A stretch of 51,774 bases of DNA from Actinospica acidithermotolerans (GTDB taxonomy: Bacteria > Actinomycetota > Actinomycetes > Streptomycetales > Catenulisporaceae). A program made the translations under genes and the position numbers. The notes beneath the pieces were generated by a model. That model made no database searches. It was given only the letters and a program-made list of their open reading frames with translations, and had not been told where the DNA came from. Below are positions 2,764 to 51,748 of the stretch, piece by piece; positions within the stretch are counted from its first letter, which is position 1, and each line of letters begins with the position of its first letter. The stretch is from NCBI RefSeq assembly GCF_018139625.1, contig NZ_JAGSOH010000043.1, positions 1-51,774 on the forward strand. The letters run 5' to 3'.

Positions 2764-2835
2764 GGGGCGCTGCTCCTTTGCGGCGACGAGATGGGGGACC
2801 GGAAGCGCACCAGCCGACCGGCGAGCCGAGTTAGC

Positions 2836-2917
2836 CAAGCAATCGATTGGTTGTGTCCGAAGCGTTACGGGACACCATCCGCCCTCCGCGCTACGCTGTC
2901 AACCAATCGATTGGTTG
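2836..2917. promoter_or_regulatory. Twin palindromic operators for the adjacent TetR regulator
   Basis: CAACCAATCGATTGGTTG at 2900-2917 is a perfect 18-bp palindrome. A second copy at 2836-2853 differs at one position (CAAGCAATCGATTGGTTG). The centres are 64 bp apart, close to six helical turns, within the divergent ligase/TetR intergenic space. The likely binder is the adjacent TetR protein, controlling both genes. The palindromes are seen directly; the binder is inferred. Confidence 0.75.
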
Positions 2918-2958
2918 CAACTCGGTATCGCGTACCGTCTGCGAAGGAGTGAGCGTCA

Positions 2959-3615
2959 GTGGACGTGCCGGACTGGAATCCGCGCCGCGTGGCCGCCGTC
3001 GAGGCCGCCCTGCCCGAGGGCGCCACCCCGCCGGGCACGCGCGGAAGGATCCTGCACGCCGGGCTGGCGCTGTTCGCCGAGACCGGGTTCGCCGGCACCT
3101 CGATCCGCGCGATCGCCGAGCGTGTCGGGATCAACTCCGCGACGCTCTATTCGCACTATCCGTCCAAGGAGCAGGTGCTCGCCGACCTCGTTCTGCTCGG
3201 GCACCGTGAATTGGCAGACCGGCTGACGTCGGCGGCCGCGGCGTTGCCCGGCGATGCCGCGGCCGATGCCCGGCTGACTGCGCTGGTGCGCGCCCACGTG
3301 CGGGTGCACACCGACTTCCCGCTCCTGGCCACCGTGACCAACACCGAGCTGCACGCCCTCGCGCCCGCGCTCGCCGCCCCGGCGCTGGAGTTGCGCGCCG
3401 AGTGTCGCAGGATGCTGATCGACATCCTGGAGCACGGGGTGAAGGACGGCGTGTTCGCCGTGCCGGACCTGCTGCTCACGGCCACCGCGATCGGCGCGAT
3501 CGGCATGCACGTGGCCTCCTGGTTCGGCCCCGATCAGCCGTTCACCGGCGAGCAGGTCGCTGATACGTATGCGGCCCTCGCTCTGCGCATGGCCGGGATC
3601 CCCGAGCCGGCCTGA
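2959..3615 (+). CDS. TetR-family transcriptional regulator
   Basis: 218-aa TetR/AcrR regulator. GTG at 2959 follows AAGGAG. After an unusual N-terminal arm of about 28 residues comes a classical HTH (roughly residues 30-77) with the TSIRAIAERVG helix and the ATLYSHYPSKEQVL recognition/anchor segment. The C-terminal ligand domain is divergent. It sits next to two near-identical palindromes and a divergent acyl-CoA ligase, and is followed 61 bp later by a carboxylesterase, so it probably senses a fatty acid, an acyl-CoA or an ester-derived acid and represses its neighbours. The ligand is inferred from context only. Confidence 0.88.
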   Translation: MDVPDWNPRRVAAVEAALPEGATPPGTRGRILHAGLALFAETGFAGTSIRAIAERVGINSATLYSHYPSKEQVLADLVLLGHRELADRLTSAAAALPGDAAADARLTALVRAHVRVHTDFPLLATVTNTELHALAPALAAPALELRAECRRMLIDILEHGVKDGVFAVPDLLLTATAIGAIGMHVASWFGPDQPFTGEQVADTYAALALRMAGIPEPA

Positions 3616-3676
3616 CCCGACCAACACCAGCCGCCGACGGCTCGCCACCGGCCCGCACTCCCCGAGGACCCCGTTC

Positions 3677-5176
3677 ATGCAGCCTTCAGTGGAAACCGCC
3701 TGCGGGACCGTACGCGGCACCGTCGTCGACGGTCGGATAGCCGTGTTCCGCAACATCCCTTACGCGGCAGCGCCGATCGGGGCCCGCCGCTTCCAGCCGC
3801 CCGCGCCCCCTGCGCCGTGGCCGGGGGTGCGCGTGTGCGACGCCTTCGGCTCCACGGCGCCGAAGGCTCCTTACGCGCCTCCGTTCGACGTCTTGCTGCC
3901 GGAGACGGACATCCCCGGCGACGACTACCTCAACCTCAATATCTGGACACCGGATGTCGACGGGCGCGCGCCGGTCATGGTCTGGCTGCACGGTGGCGCC
4001 TTCACCAACGGCTCCGGATCAGCCGCCTGCTACGACGGCGCGGCCTTCGCCCGCGACGGGGTGGTCCTCGTCACGCTCAACTACCGGCTCGGCGCCGACG
4101 GGTTCCTGTACTTCGAGGAGCCGGACGCGAGCGCGAACCTCGGCCTGCTGGACCAGATCGCGGCGCTGCGCTGGGTCCGCGAGAACATCGACTCCTTCGG
4201 CGGGGATCCCGCGCGCGTGACCGTGTTCGGCGAATCGGCCGGCGCTATGAGCATCGGAGCGCTGCTGGCCATGCCGCAGGCCGCAGGCCTCTTCCACCGC
4301 GCCATCCTGCAGTCCGGTGCCGCTCACCACTGGCTCGACCCCGACTCCGCGACCCTGATCACCGGGCGTCTGGCCGAGATCCTCGGCGTCGCCCCGACGA
4401 GGAAGGCGTTCGCCCAGGTCGAAAGCGCCCGTCTGCTGCGGGCGCAGCAGGCACTGCGCGCCGAGATCTCCGCCGAACCGACGCCGGCCCGCTGGGGCCG
4501 GGCCGCGGTCAACCTCATGCCCTTCGAACCCGTCGTCGACGCAGTCGCGCTCCCGCGAGACCCCGCCGCAGCCGCCGTCGACGGCGACCTGCCCGACGTC
4601 GAGATCCTCATCGGCACCAACAGCGACGAGTTCCGGCTGTTCACCGTGCCCACCGGCCTGATCGATGGGATCGGCGAACCCCTCGTCCGCGCCACCGCCG
4701 CCGCGTACGGCCTCGATCCGGGAACCGCTGTCGCCGTCTACCGGGAACACCATCCGGAGGACAGCTTCGGCGCGACCCACGCCCGCCTGGTCACCGACTG
4801 GTTTTACCGCATCCCCGCTCTGCGCCTGGCCGAAGCCTGCTCTCGACGCCGTCCCGGGTCCGCGTACCTCTACGAATTCGCCTGGCAGCCCCCGGCGTTC
4901 GGCGGCAGACTCGGCGCCTGCCACGCCGCCGAAATCCCGTTCGTCTTCGACTCGCTCAAGCAGGGAGATTTCGCCGGGCTGCTCGGGCCCACCCCGCCGC
5001 AACATCTGGCCACCGCGATGCACGCCGCGTGGGTCGCCTTCGCCACCCATGGCGCACCCGGCTGGCCCGCCTACGACGAGCAGCGCCGCACCACCATGTA
5101 CTTCGACCTCGAACCGCACGCGCAGCACGACCCCCGTGCCCGGGAACGCGAACTGTGGGAGCACGCCCGCCCGTAG
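3677..5176 (+). CDS. Type-B carboxylesterase
   Basis: Alpha/beta-hydrolase of the carboxylesterase/lipase type B family (pnbA-like), 499 aa, hydrolysing carboxylic esters. ATG 3677 follows GAGGA with an 8-nt spacer. Visible are the oxyanion loop HGGAF (105-109), the nucleophile elbow FGESAGAMS with Ser187, a candidate acid in GTNSDEFRLF, and a candidate His in GACHAAEIPFVF. No signal peptide is seen, so it is probably cytoplasmic. Co-directional with the TetR gene, it may supply acids to the nearby ligase. Confidence 0.88.
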   Translation: MQPSVETACGTVRGTVVDGRIAVFRNIPYAAAPIGARRFQPPAPPAPWPGVRVCDAFGSTAPKAPYAPPFDVLLPETDIPGDDYLNLNIWTPDVDGRAPVMVWLHGGAFTNGSGSAACYDGAAFARDGVVLVTLNYRLGADGFLYFEEPDASANLGLLDQIAALRWVRENIDSFGGDPARVTVFGESAGAMSIGALLAMPQAAGLFHRAILQSGAAHHWLDPDSATLITGRLAEILGVAPTRKAFAQVESARLLRAQQALRAEISAEPTPARWGRAAVNLMPFEPVVDAVALPRDPAAAAVDGDLPDVEILIGTNSDEFRLFTVPTGLIDGIGEPLVRATAAAYGLDPGTAVAVYREHHPEDSFGATHARLVTDWFYRIPALRLAEACSRRRPGSAYLYEFAWQPPAFGGRLGACHAAEIPFVFDSLKQGDFAGLLGPTPPQHLATAMHAAWVAFATHGAPGWPAYDEQRRTTMYFDLEPHAQHDPRARERELWEHARP

Positions 5177-11055: not shown

Positions 11056-11889
11056 TCACCGGGGAGGCTGGGGGACGAAGGCGTACAGGGCGTCCTGCCC
11101 CTTTCGAACCACCCCGTACGACGCCTCGGGCACTTCCTGCCAGGCGCCGGGCAGGTTCCCGACCGGTTCGGATACCACCAGGCGGGTGTCGTCGGACACT
11201 TCGTGCAGAATGTTCGCCTCAGGGTACTGCTCGCGCAGTGTCGGTACGTCCCTGGTGAAGAACAGGGTCCGCGACGTGCCCTCGCTGGAGTAGCGGAACG
11301 CCCACATCGACTCGCCGTCGCTGGTCACGATCGTCCCCTGGTAGGGGTACTCGACGCCGGCCTGCCGCCCCTGGGCCTCGACGAACCCGATCGCCTTGGC
11401 CACGGCCTCCGCCGGGTCGTCCTCGAGGCCGAAGGTGAGCGCCAGGTAGAACATGAGCTCGCTGTCGGTGGTCCCGGCGATGTGCGGGTAGTACTCGGGT
11501 TCGACGGCGAAGGCCAGGTCGCGCTTGATTTTCGCGTATCCGTCGATGAATCCGTTGTGCATCCACAGCCAGCGACCGTGCCGGAAGGGGTGGCAGTTGG
11601 TCTGCTGGACCGCTGACCCGATGGCGGCCCGGATATGGGCGAAGAACAGGGGCGAGGTGGTGTGCTGGGCCACCTCGCGAAGGTTCGCGTCATTCCAGGC
11701 CGGCTCGGTGCTGTGGAAGACTCCGGGCGTGTCCTGGCCGTCATACCATCCGATGCCGAAGCCGTCGCCGTTGGTGGTCTCGGCGCCGAGCCGAGAGTGC
11801 AGGCTCTGGTCGATGAACGAGTGGATCGGCGTGTACAGCACGTTGGAGAGCAGGACAGGGGAGCCGGAATAGGCAAGCCATCGGCACAT
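11056..11889 (-). CDS. Class II glutamine amidotransferase (YafJ/EgtC-like)
   Basis: 277-aa N-terminal-nucleophile amidotransferase. ATG 11889 is preceded by GAGGAG and puts the catalytic Cys at residue 2 (MCRWLAYSG), which becomes the N-terminus after Met removal; a longer reading would bury it. Other family features are the NGDGFGIGWY segment, the HIRAAIGSAVQQTNCHPF region and MHNGFIDGY, which hold the glutamine-binding Arg/Asn/Asp set. EgtC of ergothioneine synthesis is a relative, but no egt genes are nearby, so a YafJ-type stand-alone role is equally likely. Confidence 0.85.
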   Translation of the reverse strand: MCRWLAYSGSPVLLSNVLYTPIHSFIDQSLHSRLGAETTNGDGFGIGWYDGQDTPGVFHSTEPAWNDANLREVAQHTTSPLFFAHIRAAIGSAVQQTNCHPFRHGRWLWMHNGFIDGYAKIKRDLAFAVEPEYYPHIAGTTDSELMFYLALTFGLEDDPAEAVAKAIGFVEAQGRQAGVEYPYQGTIVTSDGESMWAFRYSSEGTSRTLFFTRDVPTLREQYPEANILHEVSDDTRLVVSEPVGNLPGAWQEVPEASYGVVRKGQDALYAFVPQPPR

Positions 11890-12016
11890 GAGCACTCCTC
11901 GGTAATGCGCTCGGACTTTGCACCACTTTGCCCGATTATTCATGGGATGGCGGCAGTCCGCAGGCCGAACAGTCCCGGTGAGGTACGGCAGCCGAACTGC
12001 AACGCGGCAGGCGCGG

Positions 12017-12036
12017 GCTCCGGTTCGCTCCGGAGC
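12017..12036 (-). terminator. Short GC hairpin after the unknown secreted-protein gene
   Basis: GCTCCG (12017-12022) pairs with CGGAGC (12031-12036) about 170 bp past the stop codon at 12205. It is a weak candidate terminator; I see no gene in 11890-12204. Confidence 0.3.
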
Positions 12037-12204
12037 ACCCCCTTCGCGACACGCCGGGGCTTCGGGCTAGCGCCTCCGGTTGTCTGCGGACGCGACGGAC
12101 CCCGAGGGGTGTGGCCGATGGGCCATCCAGGCGAGGCGTCCGAGTCCCCAAGGCGCTCGTCAGCGATCCACGTGAGCCGCACGGGGCGGCGGTGCCGGCT
12201 GTGG

Positions 12205-13413
12205 TTACCGCGTTCCGGCGGTCAGGGAGAAGGGGACGTTGATCGTGACCGAGGCCGGGAACCATCGTGCGCCGCCGACCGACTGCGGAGCCCCGCAGTT
12301 CGTTTGCAGGTACCGCATGTCGTCGCCGACGTTTCCGACGAAGTGGTCGTTCGTCGAGAAGCCGTAGCTGTCCTGGACGGTGTAGGTGAGCGTGCCGGTG
12401 TAGTGGCCGTCGACGAGGCGGCCGGTCCCGCTGACCTGCAGGCCCTGAGTGCCTCCGAACGAGTACTTCAGATCGTTGGGCATGTACAGCGCGATCCTCC
12501 GGAGCGCCGGTTGGCTGAGCACCACCGTGTTCTCGCCCAGCTCGAGGGCGTCTACGAGAGCGTGCTGCGCGGAGGAGTTCAACGCCACGAACTGAGAGTT
12601 GGAAAGCAGCTGACGTGACAGGCTCGACCCCGCCGGGAAGTTCACCGGAGTCCCGGAGCCCTCGATGAAGTGCTCCAGCAACGTGGCCGCGTCACGCGCG
12701 TCGACCTCCTCGAAGTATGCCTCGACCGCTGTCGCGGCCGCCTCGTACTGATGGAACCTACTGCTCGAGCAGACGGAGTCCGGGTAGGTCGCGTGCGTAT
12801 CCTGACTCGAACTCGCCAGTACCGGGAGTAAGCCCGATACGGTGAAGTCCAGCGCCCCCTGAACCGCTGTCATGTGCCGCGAGGTCAGGGCCCCCTTGAG
12901 CGAGAAGTACGCCGACCTGCCAGGCGCGAGCCCGTCGGCGAAGTCGATCTGCGCCGAGTCCGGCAGCGAGGGGTCGGTGACGAACGAGGTCCCCGGTCCT
13001 TCATAACCGGTGGGCCCGTAAGGGCAGTCGGCGGAACCCGTCCAGGAGGCGTGGCCGCGGCCGCAGATCCCGCCCCCGTCGAATCCGGAAAGGCCCGATC
13101 CCGGCTCGGTCACGGTGACGGCGTGAACCGCCTGGCGCGAGTCGTTGACGATCCCCACCACGGTGTCATCCTGGCCGCCGCCCCGCCCGGCGGACCCGTC
13201 CCCCTCGACGCTGACCGCCCCGCCGGCGTTGACGACAAGCAGGATTCCGCAGCCGGGCGACGGGTCGGCGGCCACGCAGTGCCTGACGGCCACAGCCGGA
13301 GTATGTACGACCCCTACTCCCGCAGCAGATCCGAGCCCGAAGACCAACCCGACCGTGATAATGCCCGCAGCCGCATAGCGCGCACGCCACGTGAGTGCCC
13401 GTTTTCCCTCCAC
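12205..13413 (-). CDS. Secreted or membrane-anchored protein of unknown function
   Basis: 402-aa protein. It has a short basic N-terminus, one hydrophobic segment (about residues 14-36; signal peptide or anchor) and then a Cys-containing extracellular region. The segment DDTVVGIVNDSRQAVHAVTV...GFDGGGICG resembles a beta-rich module seen in actinomycete secreted proteins, with paired cysteines (ICGRG...ADCPYG). The middle part is helical and charged (TAVEAYFEEVDARDAATLLEHF). The C-terminal part is Tyr/Gly-rich with a further Cys (QTNCGAPQ). Start GTG 13413 lacks a clear Shine-Dalgarno. I do not recognise a function. Confidence 0.7.
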   Translation of the reverse strand: MEGKRALTWRARYAAAGIITVGLVFGLGSAAGVGVVHTPAVAVRHCVAADPSPGCGILLVVNAGGAVSVEGDGSAGRGGGQDDTVVGIVNDSRQAVHAVTVTEPGSGLSGFDGGGICGRGHASWTGSADCPYGPTGYEGPGTSFVTDPSLPDSAQIDFADGLAPGRSAYFSLKGALTSRHMTAVQGALDFTVSGLLPVLASSSQDTHATYPDSVCSSSRFHQYEAAATAVEAYFEEVDARDAATLLEHFIEGSGTPVNFPAGSSLSRQLLSNSQFVALNSSAQHALVDALELGENTVVLSQPALRRIALYMPNDLKYSFGGTQGLQVSGTGRLVDGHYTGTLTYTVQDSYGFSTNDHFVGNVGDDMRYLQTNCGAPQSVGGARWFPASVTINVPFSLTAGTR

Positions 13414-44137: not shown

Positions 44138-44593
44138 ATGCAGACGCCAGGACTGGTGGAGATCACCCCGGAGAACGTGACCGCCGCGTGCCGCATCGAG
44201 GTACGCCCTGAACAGCAAGCTGTCGTGTCGCCGGTCGCGTGGTCGCTCGCCGTGGCCTACGCAAACCAGGCGATCGCGTGGCCACGGCTTATCGTCGATG
44301 GCGACGAAGTAGTCGGCTTTGTCATGGCCGGCTTCGACACGTCCATGCCGCCGGAGTCTTTCTTCCGGTGCGGCGTGTGGCGCCTGAACATCGCAGCCGA
44401 GCATCAGGGCCGCGGCTACGGCCGCTTCGCGGTGGAGGCGGTATGCGAACAAGCGCGGCGCCGTGGCGAACGGCGTGTAACAGTGCTCTGGGTTCCGCAC
44501 GAGCACGGGCCTGAGCGCTTCTATCTCGGGCTCGGCTTCCGACCCACCGGCGAGGTGTTCCACGGCGAGGTCGTCGGCGAGCTCCTCCTGTGA
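44138..44593 (+). CDS. GNAT-family N-acetyltransferase
   Basis: 151-aa GNAT acetyltransferase. The acetyl-CoA binding motif A is LNIAAEHQGRGYGRFAVEAVC (Q/RGxGY/G type), followed by WVPHEHGPERFYLGLGFRPTGE, typical of the spermidine/diamine acetyltransferase-like branch. A consensus -35 (TTGACA, 44086-44091) lies upstream but no good -10 is seen, and there is no Shine-Dalgarno before ATG 44138. It sits intact between two decayed transposase pieces, so it may be recently acquired cargo. Confidence 0.87.
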   Translation: MQTPGLVEITPENVTAACRIEVRPEQQAVVSPVAWSLAVAYANQAIAWPRLIVDGDEVVGFVMAGFDTSMPPESFFRCGVWRLNIAAEHQGRGYGRFAVEAVCEQARRRGERRVTVLWVPHEHGPERFYLGLGFRPTGEVFHGEVVGELLL

Positions 44594-44636
44594 GGGGATG
44601 GCAGTGCCGGGTAGCTTACTTCTCGGCCTGGGTTGC

Positions 44637-44956
44637 TCAATGTCGCTGGTCGACGAAGGCAGCCTGGGCCTGGGAGCGGGGCTGTGTGAACAGTCCGGGT
44701 TCGGCCTCGTTGAGGAACCCGAGGCTGACCAGGCGCTTGAGCTTCGCACGGGTGCCTGCGACGTGCTTGGGCATCACAGGCAGGTCCAGAGCGAGGCACA
44801 GGTCGCGGGCGCGTAGCGGTCGCCGTTCGTGCGCGCACGCATCCATGATCTGCCGGTAGGCCGCGCCGTCCGGCAGCGCCAGGGCCGGCGGTTGTTCGAG
44901 GTCGAGGCCTGGCGCCATCGCGCGGTCGGTCTCGGCCGTGACCTGCAGTGCTTCGT
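44637..44956 (-). pseudogene. IS-associated winged-helix domain remnant
   Basis: The readable frame includes LPDGAAYRQIMDACAHE, RPLRARDLCLALDLPVM and GTRAKLKRLVSLGFL then NEAEPGLFTQPR. I recognise this as a winged-helix module often met at the end of actinomycete transposase-linked ORFs, though I cannot name the IS. It has no proper start and abuts the truncated IS5 transposase. Confidence 0.5.
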
Positions 44957-44964
44957 GTCAACCC

Positions 44965-45405
44965 TATGACGTCCACGGCCAGCCCGCGCAGGCGTCCCGG
45001 GGTCTTCTTGGCCGCGTCCAGGCCGGTGGTGGACTTCGGCACCCCGGCCCCTGCACGCACCGACTGCGAGTCGAGCACCACCAGCGACGGGTCCGCAGAG
45101 CGTGCGGCCTTCTCGCGCACCATCATCCGCAGCACGTCGTTGATCCGCGCATCGAGCCCGTCACTCTTCCAGACACCGAAGTAGTAGCGCACCGCGCCGG
45201 TCGGCGGCAGGTCGTGTGGCAACAACTCCCACTGGCAGCCGGTCCGGTTCTGGTACCGCAGCGCGTTGACGATCTCGCGTATCTCGTAACGCCCCTGATG
45301 GCCGGAGACCGACGGATGCGCCGCCTTCCACGCCGCGATCAGCGGCTTGATCACGGCCCACTCCGGCTCGGTCAGGTCGGTCTTGTACGCCTTGCGCTCA
45401 CCCAC
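44965..45405 (-). pseudogene. IS5-family transposase, 3'-truncated
   Basis: GTG 45405 opens a transposase N-terminus: ERKAYKTDLTEPEWAVIKPL, NALRYQNRTGCQWELLPHDL, then the first DDE aspartate in LVVLDSQSVRAGAG and RLRGLAVDVIGL. Homology stops at about 44965, where the second and third catalytic acids should follow; the frame then runs into unrelated sequence. An internal deletion has joined it to the winged-helix remnant, so it cannot be active. Confidence 0.8.
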
Positions 45406-45531
45406 CCGACGTCCTACCAGCAGACCCTTGACCCCAGCCCACACCACCTAACTGAACGGCGTTGGTACCAGACGGGCTGCAGCCATCAGCGCCTCCAAGC
45501 TGGATAGGAGCGCCCGGCGGACGCGCCCGGG

Positions 45532-47079
45532 TCAGTGCGGGCGGAGGGCCGCCTCCTCCCGGTCAAGGTCCTGTTGGAGGCGGCGGCGAGTGGTTTCGCT
45601 GATCCGGTGCTCGTCGTACAGGCGCTGCAGGTGGGTGTTCTGCACGCCGATCACCTCGCGGCGCAGCTCGCGGTAGGCGGTGCCGAGGGTGGTGCCGTCG
45701 GGGCTTTCGACCTCGTGGTCGAGGCGGGCGGCCAGGCTCCGGCGTACCCGGTCGATCACGGCTTCGGGCATGGCCTCGAGCGAGGCGAGGTGTTCGACGT
45801 GCGCGAGGGCGGCGTGGTTGAGCGCGGCGTGGGTCTCCGATTCTTCGCGGGCGGTGTGTTCGGGTTCGAGGGCGAGCCCGGAGCGATTGACGACCGCGGC
45901 GAGCGTGAGGCCTTGGCCGACGAGAGTGCACACGACCACGGAGGTGGTGAGCACGAGGACCAGGGGTCTGCCGGGCAGCGGGCTGCCGTTGTCGGCGGTC
46001 AGCGGGATCGTGAGCGCCGCGGCCAGCGGCATGACGCCTCGGGTTCCGGCCCAGGTGACCACCGCGGCCAGCCGCCACGACAGCCGGTTCTGCCCGGGTT
46101 TGACCACGCGGGTCAGTGGCAGGGTCCACAGGATGCGTGTGCCGAGCAGGACGGTGGCGAGCGCGAGGGCTTGGAGGGGCCACCAGGTGCTGCTTGGCGG
46201 CAGGTTGCGTACCAGGGTGGGCAGTTGCAGCCCGATGATGCTGAATACGACGCTTTCGAGGAGGAACACGACGACGGCGTAGACGGCGTCGACCTGCAGG
46301 CGGATGCGGGCGTCGGTCAACTGGTGGTGGGAGCGGCCCAGTATGACGCCGGCGACCACGACCGCGGTGACCCCGGAGGTGTGGGCGCTTTCCGCGAGCA
46401 CGTAGGCGGCGTATGGGGTGGCCAGGGCGATGACGGTCTCGAGGACCGGGTCGGTGGTGCGGCGGCGGATGAGCCCGACCAGGGCCGCGAGTGCGGCTCC
46501 GATGAGGGTGCCTCCGCCGGCGAGCAGCACGAACTGCGCGCCGGCCCCGCCGACGTGCACCGTGCCGCCCACGGCCACCGCGATCCCGACCGCGACCTTG
46601 AACAGAACCAGGGAGGTGGCGTCGTTGAACAGGCTCTCGGCCTGCACGAGCACCTGGATGCGGCCGGGTAGCGCCAGGCGCCGGCCGAGCGCGGTCACCG
46701 CCACCGGGTCGGTGCTGGCCAGCACGGCGCCGAGGACGAACGCCATCGCCGGCGGCAGGCCGGTGAGGGCGACCGCTGCGAAGCCGACGGCCGCTGCCGA
46801 GGCGAAGACCAGGCCGAACGCCAGTATGGTGACTGGGCGCCAGACCGTGCGCAGATCGCGCAGGGAGAGTTCTTCGGCTGCGGCGTAGAGCAGTGGCGGC
46901 AGTACGACGATCGCGATGGTCTGGGGCGCGACGTGCACGGCGGGAGCACCCGGGATGAGGGCGATGCCCAGGCCGGCGAGAACGAGCAGCGATGGTGCGG
47001 GAATGCTCCAGCGGTTGGCGATGCTGGCCACCGTGGTCGCGAGCACCACGAGGAAGAGAACGGCTCCTACCGCACCCAT
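45532..47079 (-). CDS. Na+/H+ antiporter (CPA1 family)
   Basis: 515-aa monovalent cation/proton antiporter with about 12 membrane helices. Family motifs are STDPVAV (122-128), the ion-binding ESLFND (Asn152/Asp153) and GTRGVMPLAAAL. A cytoplasmic C-terminal tail of about 110 residues (HAALNHAALAHVEHL...RRLQQDLDREEAALRP) is helical and probably regulatory. ATG 47079. Divergent from the KdpD-like gene, which hints at a shared ion-homeostasis locus. Confidence 0.92.
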   Translation of the reverse strand: MGAVGAVLFLVVLATTVASIANRWSIPAPSLLVLAGLGIALIPGAPAVHVAPQTIAIVVLPPLLYAAAEELSLRDLRTVWRPVTILAFGLVFASAAAVGFAAVALTGLPPAMAFVLGAVLASTDPVAVTALGRRLALPGRIQVLVQAESLFNDATSLVLFKVAVGIAVAVGGTVHVGGAGAQFVLLAGGGTLIGAALAALVGLIRRRTTDPVLETVIALATPYAAYVLAESAHTSGVTAVVVAGVILGRSHHQLTDARIRLQVDAVYAVVVFLLESVVFSIIGLQLPTLVRNLPPSSTWWPLQALALATVLLGTRILWTLPLTRVVKPGQNRLSWRLAAVVTWAGTRGVMPLAAALTIPLTADNGSPLPGRPLVLVLTTSVVVCTLVGQGLTLAAVVNRSGLALEPEHTAREESETHAALNHAALAHVEHLASLEAMPEAVIDRVRRSLAARLDHEVESPDGTTLGTAYRELRREVIGVQNTHLQRLYDEHRISETTRRRLQQDLDREEAALRPH

Positions 47080-47284
47080 CTGCGCAGCCCCTGATCCTTC
47101 AGGCGGGCGCTGCCGCCGGACGCCGCAGACTTCTTCCCCGCGCCGACCAGGCTTCCCGGCACACCGGAGATCATCTTATAGGGGTTTCTAACACTCCCGT
47201 ACGTTTGCGTGACGGCCGATGGTCCCGGCCGGGCCGGGCAGTGCGGCCCTGTCGGATAGCGGGGCGTGCTCTCAGGCTGGTGGG

Positions 47285-49417
47285 GTGGCGAAGCGTGGGA
47301 GTCTGCGTATCTACCTCGGCGCGGCGCCGGGGGTCGGTAAGACGTACGCGATGCTCGCCGAGGGCCAGCGGCGTCGGGCCCGCGGGACGGACGTGGTGAT
47401 CGGGCTGGTCGAGCCGCATGGGCGGCCGTTGACCGCGGCGATGGCCGAGGGGCTCGAAGCCGTTCCGCGCCGTCAGGTGTCGCATCGCGGTGTCGTCTTC
47501 GAGGATCTTGACGTGGCGGCGGTGCTGGCGCGGGCGCCGCAGGTGGCCTTGGTCGACGAACTGGCGCACCCCAACCTCGACGGGTCCGGGCACCCGAAGC
47601 GCTGGCAGGATGTCGACGATCTGCTCGCCGCGGGCATCGACGTGGTCACCACACTCAACATCCAGCACTTGGAGTCGCTCGGCGAGGTTGTCTCGCAGAT
47701 CATCGGGGTGCCGCAGCGCGAGACCATTCCGGATGCGGTCGTGCGCCGGGCCGATCAGATCGAGCTGGTGGACATGACCGCCGAGGCGCTGCGCCGCCGG
47801 ATGGTGCACGGCAACATCTATCCACCCGATCGGATCGATGCCGCGCTCACGCACTACTTCCGGCCGGGGAACCTCACCGCGTTGCGCGAGCTGGCGCTGC
47901 TGTGGATGGCCGATCGCACCGAGGAGGGCCTGCGCGCCTACCGTGCCGCCCACGACATCGTCGCGCCGTGGGAGACGCGCGAGCGCGTCGTGGTCGGCCT
48001 GGCCGGCCGAGTCGAGGAGGAGCCGCTCGTGCGGCGCGCGGCCCGGATCGCCGAGCGCATGCCCGGCGCCGAACTGCTCGCCGTCCACGTCCGTGCGCAG
48101 GACGGTCTCAGCGAGGCCGACCAGGAGGCGCTCGGGAAGCTGTTCGCCCTGGTCGAATCGCTCGGCGGCAGCGTGCACCGGGTGACCGGGGACGACACCG
48201 CCGAGGCGCTCGTCCAATTCGCCCGCGCGCACCAGGCCACCCAGCTCGTCCTCGGGTACACGGCGAGCACGCATCGTTTCCCGCTGCGCACCCGTTTGAC
48301 CACTCGGGTGCTGCGGCGCAACGAGGGTATCGACGTGAATCTGGTGAACGACCGCGGCGGCGGGTCGGGGCCAGAGCGTCGGCTGCCGCGGGCGGCCCGG
48401 CGACGCGCCGTGCTGGCCGAGGCAGAGCTGATCCGGGCCCTGTCCGTCAGCGTGCTCGACGGGCACGAGGATCTACCCAGCCTGCTCGAACAGGTGCGCC
48501 GAAGCTGCGATCTGCGTGCCGTGAGCCTGCTGGAACCGCTGCCGGAGCATCCAGGCGAGTGGAGCGTGGTGGGGAGCGCGGGCGAGCACGCGCCCGAAAC
48601 TCCCGCAGGCGCCGATGCCACGGCGACACCGGACGGCTCGGTCACGCTCGCCGCTCGCGGCCGAATCACCGACCCCGCGGTGCGCGAGGCGTTCGCCGGA
48701 GCCGCCGAGCGCATACGGTCCATGCGCGTGCACGCCGCCGAACGGGGCGCGCGGCGCGAGGAGCGGCGGCATAGTGTCAGGGCGACGCTGGCCACCGTGC
48801 AACTCGTCCTCGTCCACGAACTCGCCCCCCGCCTGCACACCGTGCGCGCAGACCTGACGTCCGGCGAACCGGCGGAGATCAAGAACGCGGCGCATACGCT
48901 GGACGCGCTCACCCGGCGCGTCGAGGAGCTCATCGATCTGTGCCGGGTGGACACCGGAGGGTTGGAGCTGCAGTTGCGGCCGGTAGAGCTCGACGAGGTG
49001 GTCGAGGCGGCCCTCGAGGATCTCGGCCCGGGCGGGCGCGGCCTCGTCATAGATCTGCCCGAGGATCTCCCGGACGCGGTCGCCGACGCCGATTCGCTCT
49101 CCCGGGCGCTGACGGTGCTGGCCGCCGACGCGCTGCGGCGCAGCGATTCCGATCGACCTCCTGTCTTGAGTGGCCGAAGCAGCGACGGTCGAGTCCAGCT
49201 TGATCTGACGGTGCGGCAATCGGCGCGGCAGGGGCCGGAACCGGGTGCCGACGAGGACGGAACGCCGCGAACGGCATTGGCCCAGGAGCACGACCTGGCC
49301 GTGCGCCTTGCGCGGGGCCTCATCGACGCGATGGCAGGGACGTTGGACCTCAAGCGGACCGACGGAGCCGACCGTTACAGCGCGGTCATCGACCTGCCCG
49401 CGGCGCGACGCGGCTGA
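47285..49417 (+). CDS. KdpD-like osmosensor protein without membrane domain, degenerate kinase
   Basis: 710 aa. GTG 47285 is chosen because KdpD proteins begin just before the RIYLGAAPGVGKT motif. Residues 1-210 are a typical KdpD N-terminal domain (Walker A 12-20, VALVDELAHPN 87-97). Residues 233-350 are the USP-like domain. The four membrane helices of KdpD are absent: after about 355 the chain stays hydrophilic. The C-terminal part still aligns with the KdpD kinase (LIDLCRVDTGGLELQLRPVEL, GLVIDLPEDLP), but the H-box reads VHELAPRL (His511) instead of SHDLRTPL, the N-box Asn is replaced (AADALRRS) and no G-boxes are visible. It is probably soluble and unable to bind ATP in the kinase domain. 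No kdpE follows. Confidence 0.85.
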   Translation: MAKRGSLRIYLGAAPGVGKTYAMLAEGQRRRARGTDVVIGLVEPHGRPLTAAMAEGLEAVPRRQVSHRGVVFEDLDVAAVLARAPQVALVDELAHPNLDGSGHPKRWQDVDDLLAAGIDVVTTLNIQHLESLGEVVSQIIGVPQRETIPDAVVRRADQIELVDMTAEALRRRMVHGNIYPPDRIDAALTHYFRPGNLTALRELALLWMADRTEEGLRAYRAAHDIVAPWETRERVVVGLAGRVEEEPLVRRAARIAERMPGAELLAVHVRAQDGLSEADQEALGKLFALVESLGGSVHRVTGDDTAEALVQFARAHQATQLVLGYTASTHRFPLRTRLTTRVLRRNEGIDVNLVNDRGGGSGPERRLPRAARRRAVLAEAELIRALSVSVLDGHEDLPSLLEQVRRSCDLRAVSLLEPLPEHPGEWSVVGSAGEHAPETPAGADATATPDGSVTLAARGRITDPAVREAFAGAAERIRSMRVHAAERGARREERRHSVRATLATVQLVLVHELAPRLHTVRADLTSGEPAEIKNAAHTLDALTRRVEELIDLCRVDTGGLELQLRPVELDEVVEAALEDLGPGGRGLVIDLPEDLPDAVADADSLSRALTVLAADALRRSDSDRPPVLSGRSSDGRVQLDLTVRQSARQGPEPGADEDGTPRTALAQEHDLAVRLARGLIDAMAGTLDLKRTDGADRYSAVIDLPAARRG

Positions 49418-49620: not shown

Positions 49621-50478
49621 TCAGGCGGCGGCAGGCGTCGGCAGCCGGTCGAAGCCGACGGTCTTGGCAGTGGCCTTCCACAGCCGGGCGACCGCGCGCT
49701 CGTCGGCCACCAGACCGGCGAACGGGCCCTGGACCTCGCCGTCGTAGTACGCGCCGTCGGTGAGCTCGGTCTCGGGCAGGCAGAGCCTGGAGACGGTCTC
49801 GGCGCCCTCGGCCGCGGGAGCTCCGGTACGCGCGTAGAGCGGGAGCAGTCCTGAGGCGATGACGCCCGGATGCACGCTGGCGGCGAGCAACTGATCCCCG
49901 CCCGCGGCGGCCGCCGCGCGGGTGAACATCGTCAGCTGCAGCTTGGACTGCGCGTAGGCGGCGGTGCGGGAGTAGTGCTTGGCGCGGTCCATGTCGCCCC
50001 AGTTGAAGTTGCCGGTGCGGTGCAGGGAGGAGGAGACGTTGACCACGCGTCCCTGCCGCGTCATGCACAGCGGGACCCACAGTAGCCGGGTGAGCAGGTA
50101 CGGTGCGAGGTAGTTGACCTGGTGGACGAGTTCGTGTCCGTCGCGGGTGACCGCGCGGGTGTCGCTGCCGGATACTGCGGCGTTGTTGACGAGCACGTCC
50201 AGGCAGGGGTGGCGTGCCTCGATGCGCGCGGCGAGGTCGGCGACGGCGTGCAGGTCGCGGAAGTCGGCGACCTCGAACTCGATCCTCTCGGCGGGCAGCT
50301 TCGCCAGCAGCAGCCGGTCGCGCGCGCCTTCGACGAGCTCGGGAGTGGGGCCGTGCACGATGACGGTCATGCCCGCGGCCAGCAGCCGCCGGGCGATGCC
50401 GTGCCCGATCCCGTTGGTGGCTCCGGTCACCAGGGCGACACGAGCCGACGTGGGCACAGCGGACATGGTTGTAGACAT
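49621..50478 (-). CDS. Short-chain dehydrogenase/reductase
   Basis: 285-aa NAD(P)-dependent SDR. TGATNGIG (18-25) is the cofactor motif, then VLVNNAAVSG, the catalytic Ser in VNVSSSLH and YAQSK (Tyr/Lys). The chain is longer than basic SDRs, with a retinol-dehydrogenase-like C-terminus (HPGVIASGLLPLY). ATG 50478 or 50466; the upstream sequence GGATATATAAC is AT-rich and looks like a -10 element close to the start, so the transcript may be nearly leaderless. The 280-bp gap upstream to the USP gene shows no gene. Substrate unknown. Confidence 0.88.
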   Translation of the reverse strand: MSTTMSAVPTSARVALVTGATNGIGHGIARRLLAAGMTVIVHGPTPELVEGARDRLLLAKLPAERIEFEVADFRDLHAVADLAARIEARHPCLDVLVNNAAVSGSDTRAVTRDGHELVHQVNYLAPYLLTRLLWVPLCMTRQGRVVNVSSSLHRTGNFNWGDMDRAKHYSRTAAYAQSKLQLTMFTRAAAAAGGDQLLAASVHPGVIASGLLPLYARTGAPAAEGAETVSRLCLPETELTDGAYYDGEVQGPFAGLVADERAVARLWKATAKTVGFDRLPTPAAA

Positions 50479-50760: not shown

Positions 50761-51327
50761 TCACCGGTCTTTCGCGGACCTCGGCGGCAGGGGGAGCGGC
50801 CCGGGTCGTGCCGATGCGTCGAGCACGTGGTTGATCTGTTGCCGTCGGCTGCGCCACGAGCGCAGTGCGGCGTGCAGGGGTGACGGTGGGACGGCGATGA
50901 CCGGGCACGTCGCGTGCGCCAGGCAGTAGCGGGCGGTACCGGCGTGCAGGGCGTGCCGGATCGTTCCGCGTCGGCCCGCGCCGACGATCAGAAGATCATG
51001 CTGCCTGTTCGCGGTCTGCACCAGGACGGGCCCGGGCTCGCCCATGATCACCCAGGGTTGGACGGGAAGGTCGGTCGGCGGTCCGCCCAGGCCTTCCTCG
51101 AAGGCGCGCCGCAGATCGCCCTCGGCGAACTCGCGCAGGACGCTGTTGTAGTGCGCGGACGACGCGCGCCTGCCGGCGAGCGCTCCGCCCGGCGATCGCC
51201 AGGCCAGGACCGGGACGAGTACGGCCGCGAGCAGGCGGGCCTGGGCTGCCGCGAAGCGCAGCGCTTCGAGGCTGCCGAGCGAGCCGTCGACTCCGACGAC
51301 GACGCGACCGACGATTTTCGACTCCAT
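50761..51327 (-). CDS. Universal stress protein (UspA family)
   Basis: 188-aa single-domain USP. N-terminal VGRVVVGVDGSLGSLEALRFAA and the C-terminal ATP-loop-like segment DLLIVGAGRRGTIRHALHAGTARYCLAHATCPVIAVPP, which keeps the G-x-G spacing in a slightly altered form (GAGRRG). A basic tail of 35 residues follows. Adjacent to the kdp operon and a KdpD-like protein that itself contains a USP domain; dormancy or stress regulation is likely. Confidence 0.87.
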   Translation of the reverse strand: MESKIVGRVVVGVDGSLGSLEALRFAAAQARLLAAVLVPVLAWRSPGGALAGRRASSAHYNSVLREFAEGDLRRAFEEGLGGPPTDLPVQPWVIMGEPGPVLVQTANRQHDLLIVGAGRRGTIRHALHAGTARYCLAHATCPVIAVPPSPLHAALRSWRSRRQQINHVLDASARPGPLPLPPRSAKDR

Positions 51328-51658: not shown

Positions 51659-51748
51659 ATGGCCGACGTCCTCTACGTCGTGCTCGTTATTGCGGCCTTC
51701 GCCGTTTTGGCGTTGGTCGTGAAGGGGGTCGAGCGTCTTGAGCGCTGA
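51659..51748 (+). CDS. 29-residue membrane peptide at the head of the kdp operon
   Basis: ATG 51659 follows AAGAGGAG at 7-nt spacing. The product, MADVLYVVLVIAAFAVLA then LVVKGVERLER, is one membrane helix with a charged tail. As I recall, similar small ORFs precede kdpF in streptomycetes. Its end overlaps the likely kdpF start by 11 bp, implying coupled translation. Function unknown; it may be a Kdp-associated subunit. Confidence 0.75.
   Translation: MADVLYVVLVIAAFAVLALVVKGVERLER

Follow-up and report, generated by a model that had tools for sequence, protein, structure and literature searches.

Genes at the contig end

The window, the whole stretch of DNA analysed here, is the complete 51,774-nucleotide contig C360 (NZ_JAGSOH010000043.1) of the 7.9-Mb, 422-contig assembly of Actinospica acidithermotolerans. 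Its last part encodes a KdpD homologue flanked by genes for an antiporter, a short-chain dehydrogenase (SDR) and a universal stress protein (Usp), and it stops within the first codons of kdpF (Table 1). The KdpD homologue is an open frame of 710 codons with a GTG start, no internal stops and a GC3 of 0.86; an in-frame ATG 66 nt upstream, at 47219, is a possible alternative start. Adjoining the antiporter gene, positions 44521-45447 (minus strand) resemble by eye an IS transposase gene with its second half out of frame.

Table 1. Features at the kdpF-proximal end of the window (res., residues of the KdpD homologue).
Feature	Coordinates	Strand	Basis or remark
CPA1-type (Pfam Na_H_Exchanger) antiporter, 515 aa, divergent, 205 bp from the KdpD homologue	45532..47079	-	
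Soluble KdpD homologue with dead histidine kinase (HK), 710 aa	47285..49417	+	ORF, Pfam, hydropathy
KdpD N-terminal domain (NTD), putative atypical serine kinase (ASK)	47291..47917	+	Pfam; motifs; 2r8r match
Usp domain lacking the S. aureus c-di-AMP motif	47981..48274	+	Pfam; 7ji4 match; alignment
GAF-like strands, res. 412-458	48518..48658	+	AlphaFold model; no Pfam match
Degenerate DHp hairpin, res. 464-556, H-box VHELAPR	48674..48952	+	E. coli alignment and model
Degenerate CA (Bergerat-fold) domain, N-box Asn replaced by Asp, G1/G2 lost	48986..49414	+	Alignment and model
Short-chain dehydrogenase (SDR)	49621..50478	-	
Universal stress protein (Usp), divergent from kdpF	50761..51327	-	
Small hydrophobic ORF, 29 codons, directly 5' of and overlapping the kdpF start	51659..51748	+	Also in G001; L047
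kdpF, first 12 codons, TTG start, cut by the contig end	51738..51774	+	

The contig end lies 2.3 kb from the KdpD homologue. The first-pass annotation had remarked that no kdpE adjoins the gene; none does in the window, but this is an effect of the contig edge, and in view of the kdpF codons the idea of an orphan from kdp is rejected. The last 1.07 kb of the window and the Usp-kdpF region of a genome of the same genus (G001) align at 72%. A Usp gene is divergent from kdpA at three kdpFABCDE operons of G001 and its congener G002, and the encoded proteins share 60%, 63% and 64/45% (two pieces) identity with the window Usp. The terminal 127 bp of the window occur one more time in its genome, at the end of contig C408. 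A kdpD/kdpE pair downstream of kdpC, which was looked for, is present on two other contigs, C22 and C114; these carry kdpB'-kdpC-kdpD-kdpE with an intact KdpD on each, and both end inside kdpB in one shared 127-bp stretch. Searches of the assembly revealed neither KdpA nor the N-terminal half of KdpB. The pattern suggests two near-identical kdpFABC copies in a short-read assembly, and the window very probably continues into one kdpFABC operon and then, via C22 or C114, into an intact kdpD-kdpE pair. The genome encodes three intact KdpDs and, twice or more, KdpE; a fifth, weak KdpD match on C375 (24.6 bits) falls below the cut-off.

Domain architecture and loss of the membrane helices

Both N-terminal domains of full-length KdpD kinases are present in the 710-residue protein: Pfam (E up to 1) finds KdpD at residues 3-211 (306.8 bits) and Usp at residues 233-330 (24.1 bits, cut-off 24). 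At the same threshold no match is made to HisKA, HATPase_c or GAF. The kinase remnant is recognised by phmmer, with an E-value of 8e-7 against 6lgq, a KdpD DHp-CA structure. The NCBIfam model NF038185 scores 317 bits, below its curated cut-off of 550.

None of the four transmembrane helices of KdpD is found in the protein by hydropathy, alignment or AlphaFold modelling. The maximum 19-residue Kyte-Doolittle mean is 1.18, and the equivalent of E. coli KdpD 385-505 is reduced to 7 residues, whereas 31 membrane relatives have 117-121 there.

The AlphaFold model (29-row alignment, mean pLDDT 77, pTM 0.37) orders the parts as P-loop domain, Usp, GAF-like strands, DHp hairpin and CA-like sheet, without a membrane segment. 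Owing to the low pTM the arrangement of the domains is not to be trusted, and much of residues 130-231, as well as residues 649-665 in the CA domain, is poorly predicted. The single domains match known folds: the NTD matches the KdpD NTD 2r8r (Z 20.1, rmsd 1.7, 137 aligned), the Usp that of S. aureus KdpD 7ji4 (Z 17.9, rmsd 2.0, 123 aligned), and the HK core both the KdpD DHp-CA 6lgq (Z 17.5, rmsd 3.0, 200 aligned) and DivL 4q20 (Z 18.0, rmsd 5.6, 207 aligned). DivL, a pseudokinase, is the top HK-core row of the structural matches, within 1 Z of ordinary kinases; RetS is also matched.

Histidine kinase boxes, serine kinase site and Usp domain

Alignment to E. coli KdpD bears out the initial description of a recognisable kinase region that has lost the RTPL of the H-box, the N-box Asn and the ATP-lid glycines. 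The H-box reads VLVHELAPRL (E. coli, ALSHDLRTPL), the N-box reads LAADALRR (E. coli, LLENAVKY), and the G1 and G2 boxes are absent. The H-box loss appears certain for RTPL and less sure for the His itself, as the His of the degenerate box aligns with E. coli H673. The H[D/E]L of three related proteins (L080, L085 and L097) lies, by eye, three residues later, a register also possible for the window protein. Because the ATP-binding boxes are lost, histidine autophosphorylation by the window protein is not expected.

In E. coli, the NTD of KdpD is an ASK that phosphorylates KdpB-S162 and so switches the pump off; the isolated NTD, or KdpD without DHpCA, still phosphorylates KdpB, and this phosphorylation is lost in the Walker A, D109A, E110A and W39A/R190A mutants (PMC11018627). 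All ASK residues compared in the alignment are kept in the window protein, namely an intact Walker A (GAAPGVGKT, G-X5-GKT), Tyr 39, D109/E110 and R190 (E. coli numbering). Position 39, a Trp in E. coli, is Tyr or Phe in intact relatives and Tyr in P. syringae KdpD. Thus, the label 'kinase-dead' given at first holds for the histidine kinase and does not extend to the N-terminal serine-kinase site, which is intact. All six KdpB proteins read, three of them from the same genus, contain the target motif TGES. The TGES serine of the organism's own KdpB was not seen, as it would lie in the half that is missing from the assembly.

The proposal that the protein senses c-di-AMP fares less well. The S. 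aureus motif SXS-X20-FTAXY (PMC4686210) is not matched by the window Usp despite the similarity in fold, and S244, S246, F267 and Y271 of S. aureus correspond to A, R, L and H in an alignment that is itself weak (E 0.065). These four diagnostic residues do not support sensing through the S. aureus motif, and c-di-AMP control of the window protein is weakened as a prediction. In favour of the proposal, the genome has a diadenylate cyclase (DAC) gene, and Deinococcus geothermalis has a short soluble KdpD that is reported to be stimulated by c-di-AMP (PMC11018627), so that a c-di-AMP site other than the S. aureus motif is possible by analogy.

A lineage of KdpDs with dead histidine kinases

Relatives were sought with a profile (A1) built from the C-terminal parts of four HK-dead proteins, five candidates being scored per genome in the order- and class-level searches. 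Among the matches listed for 391 genomes of the order, at least 12 genomes score 283-534 bits. Genome G006 scores 187 bits, a low value attributed to deletion of its DHp; the rows after it, at 184 bits and below, are in the ordinary KdpD range. Class-wide (394 genomes), apart from four genomes of the order search, the best listed matches reach at most 238 bits, and the best 18 listed lie in open frames of 746-992 aa. Scanning GTDB contigs gave 41 loci, 35 of which encode a full-length HK-dead KdpD; those left out are L114 (intact kinase), L095 (no full-length ORF) and L117-L120 (short weak matches). The 35 loci, the window and G006 make up 37 rows. Most members are from Streptomyces, with others from Streptantibioticus, Actinacidiphila, Kutzneria and MAGs (Streptosporangiaceae, Actinomycetota).

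Across the 37 rows, Walker A, an aromatic residue at position 39, the DE pair and R190 are each conserved in 37/37; apart from the use of a P-loop pattern to locate candidate ORFs, these ASK counts are independent of row selection. Of the HK residues, His 673 is kept in 9/37, HDLRTP in 0/37, the N-box Asn in 2/37 and the G2 GxGLG in 0/37, where the zeros for H-box and G2 follow in part from the choice of rows for lack of canonical HK boxes. The C-terminal remnant has a signature of its own, LRPVDLDEV..LPDVIADAALLTRVLT..ADALRHSP. The membrane stretch is kept in 32 rows, with 117-121 residues in 31 and 49 in the Kutzneria protein (L088). The five soluble members are the window protein, G006 and the MAG genes L080, L085 and L097. 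Close homologues share both losses, and a sequencing frameshift is an unlikely cause, given that the soluble architecture is common to three Streptosporangiaceae MAG genes and G006.

The phylogeny (IQ-TREE, 61 rows) is based on the N-terminal 375 residues and leaves out the HK columns. On this tree the HK-lost label needs two changes (L044 and L106_11161 not counted), and the intact actinobacterial KdpDs form one group (85/91, not starred) with a 366-aa short form (L044, G034). An open group of eight (93/81) unites the window protein with the other soluble members and with Kutzneria, L106 and L116; the window protein sits on a long branch, and its precise position is uncertain. Solubility requires two changes on the best tree and one in 22% of bootstrap trees. 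These data indicate that the HK-dead, ASK-intact KdpD is an old actinobacterial lineage and not a single broken gene. Locus L106 also has, at 11161-13017 and adjoining its HK-dead KdpD, a divergent 618-aa ORF of the KdpD type, which encodes four hydrophobic segments and lacks a standard H-box. On the tree this protein lies outside the actinobacterial KdpDs and next to the E. coli outgroup, at a point where two long branches come together.

Selection on the N-terminal domain and on the kinase remnant

In eleven chosen pairs (Nei-Gojobori), the dN/dS of the NTD is 0.08-0.24. That of the CA domain is 0.16-0.46 in eight HK-dead pairs and 0.09-0.28 in three intact pairs; the C-terminal remnant is thus under constraint, which is generally weaker than in intact kinases, though the ranges overlap. 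Among soluble members, L080/L085 and L080/L097 give 0.08 and 0.15 for the NTD, 0.31 and 0.32 for the DHp and 0.16 and 0.26 for the CA. A GAF value of 0.82 comes from a very close pair with few changes (L094/L098). The window protein is 79% identical to L080 in the NTD, 49% in the CA and 20% in the DHp, where dN/dS is 0.79 at a high dS (1.56); with the long branch, this value allows for relaxed constraint on the window DHp. A separate HK-dead KdpD gene, L045 6794-7792 of G028, looks decaying, as a large internal deletion joins its first ~40 residues to the GAF region.

The long branch, the relaxed DHp and the G028 copy would fit a reading of the window gene as itself a decaying pseudogene with a frame open by chance. 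This is very unlikely in view of the open frame, the GC3, the unchanged ASK residues, the same soluble architecture in other families and the dN/dS below 1 in the relatives compared. The earlier view that the soluble form is maintained rather than decayed is upheld by the frame and by the shared architecture.

The protein might instead be a non-catalytic modulator, its dead DHp-CA heterodimerising with the intact KdpDs and altering KdpE phosphorylation, and the ASK site would be incidental or serve ATP binding only. RetS with GacS and DivL with CckA are analogues. The HK-core fold kept in the model, the presence of DivL and RetS among the structural matches, the purifying selection on the CA region in relatives and the three intact KdpDs of the genome fit such a role. 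It is unlikely nonetheless, for the DHp, which forms the dimer interface, shows the lowest conservation, with the H-box region deleted in G006, L111 and L115, while the NTD is the best conserved.

Gene neighbourhoods of the lineage

A kdpA, kdpB or kdpC gene lies within 10 kb of at least 28 of the 37 members, collinear or divergent, with the window counted by its kdpF codons; in all 37 rows the sequence stops short of 10 kb on one or both sides. This bears out the suggested link to KdpFABC. S. noursei and S. atratus are examples of Streptomyces with a member next to kdpFABC. Linkage is seen for 2/5 soluble and 26/32 membrane members (Fisher p = 0.08), a difference from which no claim is drawn; for the remaining three soluble members, the DNA read contains no kdp genes. 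Within 14.4 kb, G006 carries the soluble homologue, a similar SDR and a set of kdp genes of a more distant kind in the order B, C, A. The window SDR is 52% identical to this SDR, which stands between the KdpD homologue and the kdp genes, and 50% identical to one near the HK-dead KdpD of L109. A more distant KdpA type (49-52%) is also noted in L182 (10377-15014, minus strand), L084 (2377-6100, minus strand) and L047 (127-1830), and the order kdpB-kdpC-kdpA in L182 and L084. In L097, the gene for the soluble HK-dead KdpD (2790-4741) is followed by an aldehyde dehydrogenase gene and a DUF779 gene.

The divergent antiporter raises the question of another target. In G099 (L184), one strand carries in a row an HK-dead KdpD, kdpA, kdpB, kdpC, an intact KdpD and a CPA1-type antiporter. 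In G045 (L042) and G118 (L183) the antiporter is divergent from a KdpD whose boxes are intact, and in L099 from a KdpD that is cut by the locus end after the H-box, which is present. All four boxes are found in each of the six KdpDs checked in L183, L184, L042, L036, L037 and L038. In Kutzneria viridogrisea (L088, 4863-10951), the start of the HK-dead KdpD overlaps the final codons of a gene for subunit D of a V/A-type ATP synthase; two ATP-synt_ab (V/A-type) genes precede it, and Fe-S, HypF and HypD (hydrogenase-maturation) genes come after it.

The ASK could have been retargeted to another cation transporter, the CPA1-type antiporter here and the V-type ATPase in Kutzneria. The 205-bp divergent arrangement in the window, the antiporters next to KdpDs in G099, G045, G118 and L099 and the coupling in L088 speak for such a switch. 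It is nevertheless very unlikely, as the best antiporter homologues in the four closest genomes (G185, G310, G165 and G275) have no KdpD in the 12-13 kb read, so that the antiporter is not supported as an obligatory partner, and no such antiporter lies by G006 and the three MAG soluble members in the DNA read. A broader scenario, also very unlikely, is that a sensor turned into a free-standing cytoplasmic serine kinase, with its dead HK half as an allosteric dimer scaffold, and was then retargeted from KdpFABC to the CPA1-type antiporter or V-type ATPase.

Proposed function

The reading favoured here is that the soluble KdpD, with its HK dead and its ASK kept, probably serine-phosphorylates KdpB to shut off KdpFABC, the DHp-CA being kept as a scaffold. 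No histidine autophosphorylation of its own is predicted from the degenerate boxes. At sufficient K+, the NTD would bind ATP and phosphorylate the KdpB TGES serine (S162 in E. coli), thereby inhibiting the pump, as conservation and the E. coli biochemistry suggest. Transcription would be left to the intact KdpD/KdpE pairs, and the soluble protein would act as a post-translational brake independent of membrane helices. As to the signal, the helices are gone and the c-di-AMP residues are replaced by A, R, L and H; c-di-AMP might still act through another site. Pseudo-HKs usually act by dimerisation or by pairing with intact kinases; the degenerate DHp-CA may likewise persist as a scaffold for dimerisation or regulation and might pair with the intact KdpDs.

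This serine-kinase reading is favoured by the ASK residues conserved in every row, the loss of the HK boxes, the E. coli biochemistry, the contig end within kdpF, the kdp genes near most members, TGES in the KdpBs read, the predicted folds, the three intact KdpDs of the genome and the NTD as the most conserved part. Against it stand the failure to find KdpA and the N-terminal half of KdpB in the assembly, the soluble members without kdp (3/5), the coupling of the Kutzneria member to a V-type ATPase, the Tyr in place of the E. coli Trp at position 39, and the long branch with its possibly relaxed DHp. The genome also has KdpE, unlike most species with HK-less KdpD, as KdpDs without HK activity are described as occurring predominantly in species without KdpE (PMC11018627). 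That census of KdpD forms counted only the full-length KdpD where a species also has one, so extra copies like that of the window would be invisible in it; the terms Actinomycetota, Actinobacteria and Streptomyces have no mention (term counts) in the main text of the same paper.

The serine-kinase role of KdpD was reported in 2024 (PMC11018627). A lineage in which the ASK is unchanged and the HK lost provides evolutionary evidence for the ASK as a selected function, even beside an intact KdpD/KdpE. Having neither helices nor the S. aureus c-di-AMP motif, the soluble, HK-silent form is convenient for probing the ASK signal, and it suits the question of why a dead HK core is retained.

Comparison with known systems

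The general idea of a KdpD with an ASK but no HK is already known. No description of a degenerate-HK KdpD beside an intact KdpDE in actinobacteria, or of a soluble branch, was found in the titles and abstract openings among the matches listed, which include few subscription journals. DivL and RetS, which lack standard kinase activity, share the HK core fold and are structural matches to the window model; they have other sensor domains and are not known to carry an ASK domain.

E. coli KdpD, the tandem serine-histidine kinase (Silberberg et al. 2024, PMC11018627), is alike in ASK residues, Usp and DHp-CA fold; the window protein differs in having neither helices nor HK boxes and in being an extra copy beside intact KdpDs. 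The short KdpDs, which consist of KdpD/Usp only (D. geothermalis; NF038185, KdpD-like non-kinase potassium sensor), are alike in ASK and Usp and in that no HK activity is expected. By contrast, the window protein is longer by about 350 residues, in which GAF-like, DHp and CA remnants are recognisable, and its NF038185 score is 317 against 550. The KdpDs of Campylobacterota and Archaea with a truncated DHpCA (PMC11018627) likewise keep the ASK and have lost the HK; while these are described as truncated, the HK part of the window protein is nearly full length, though degenerate, and coexists with an intact KdpDE.
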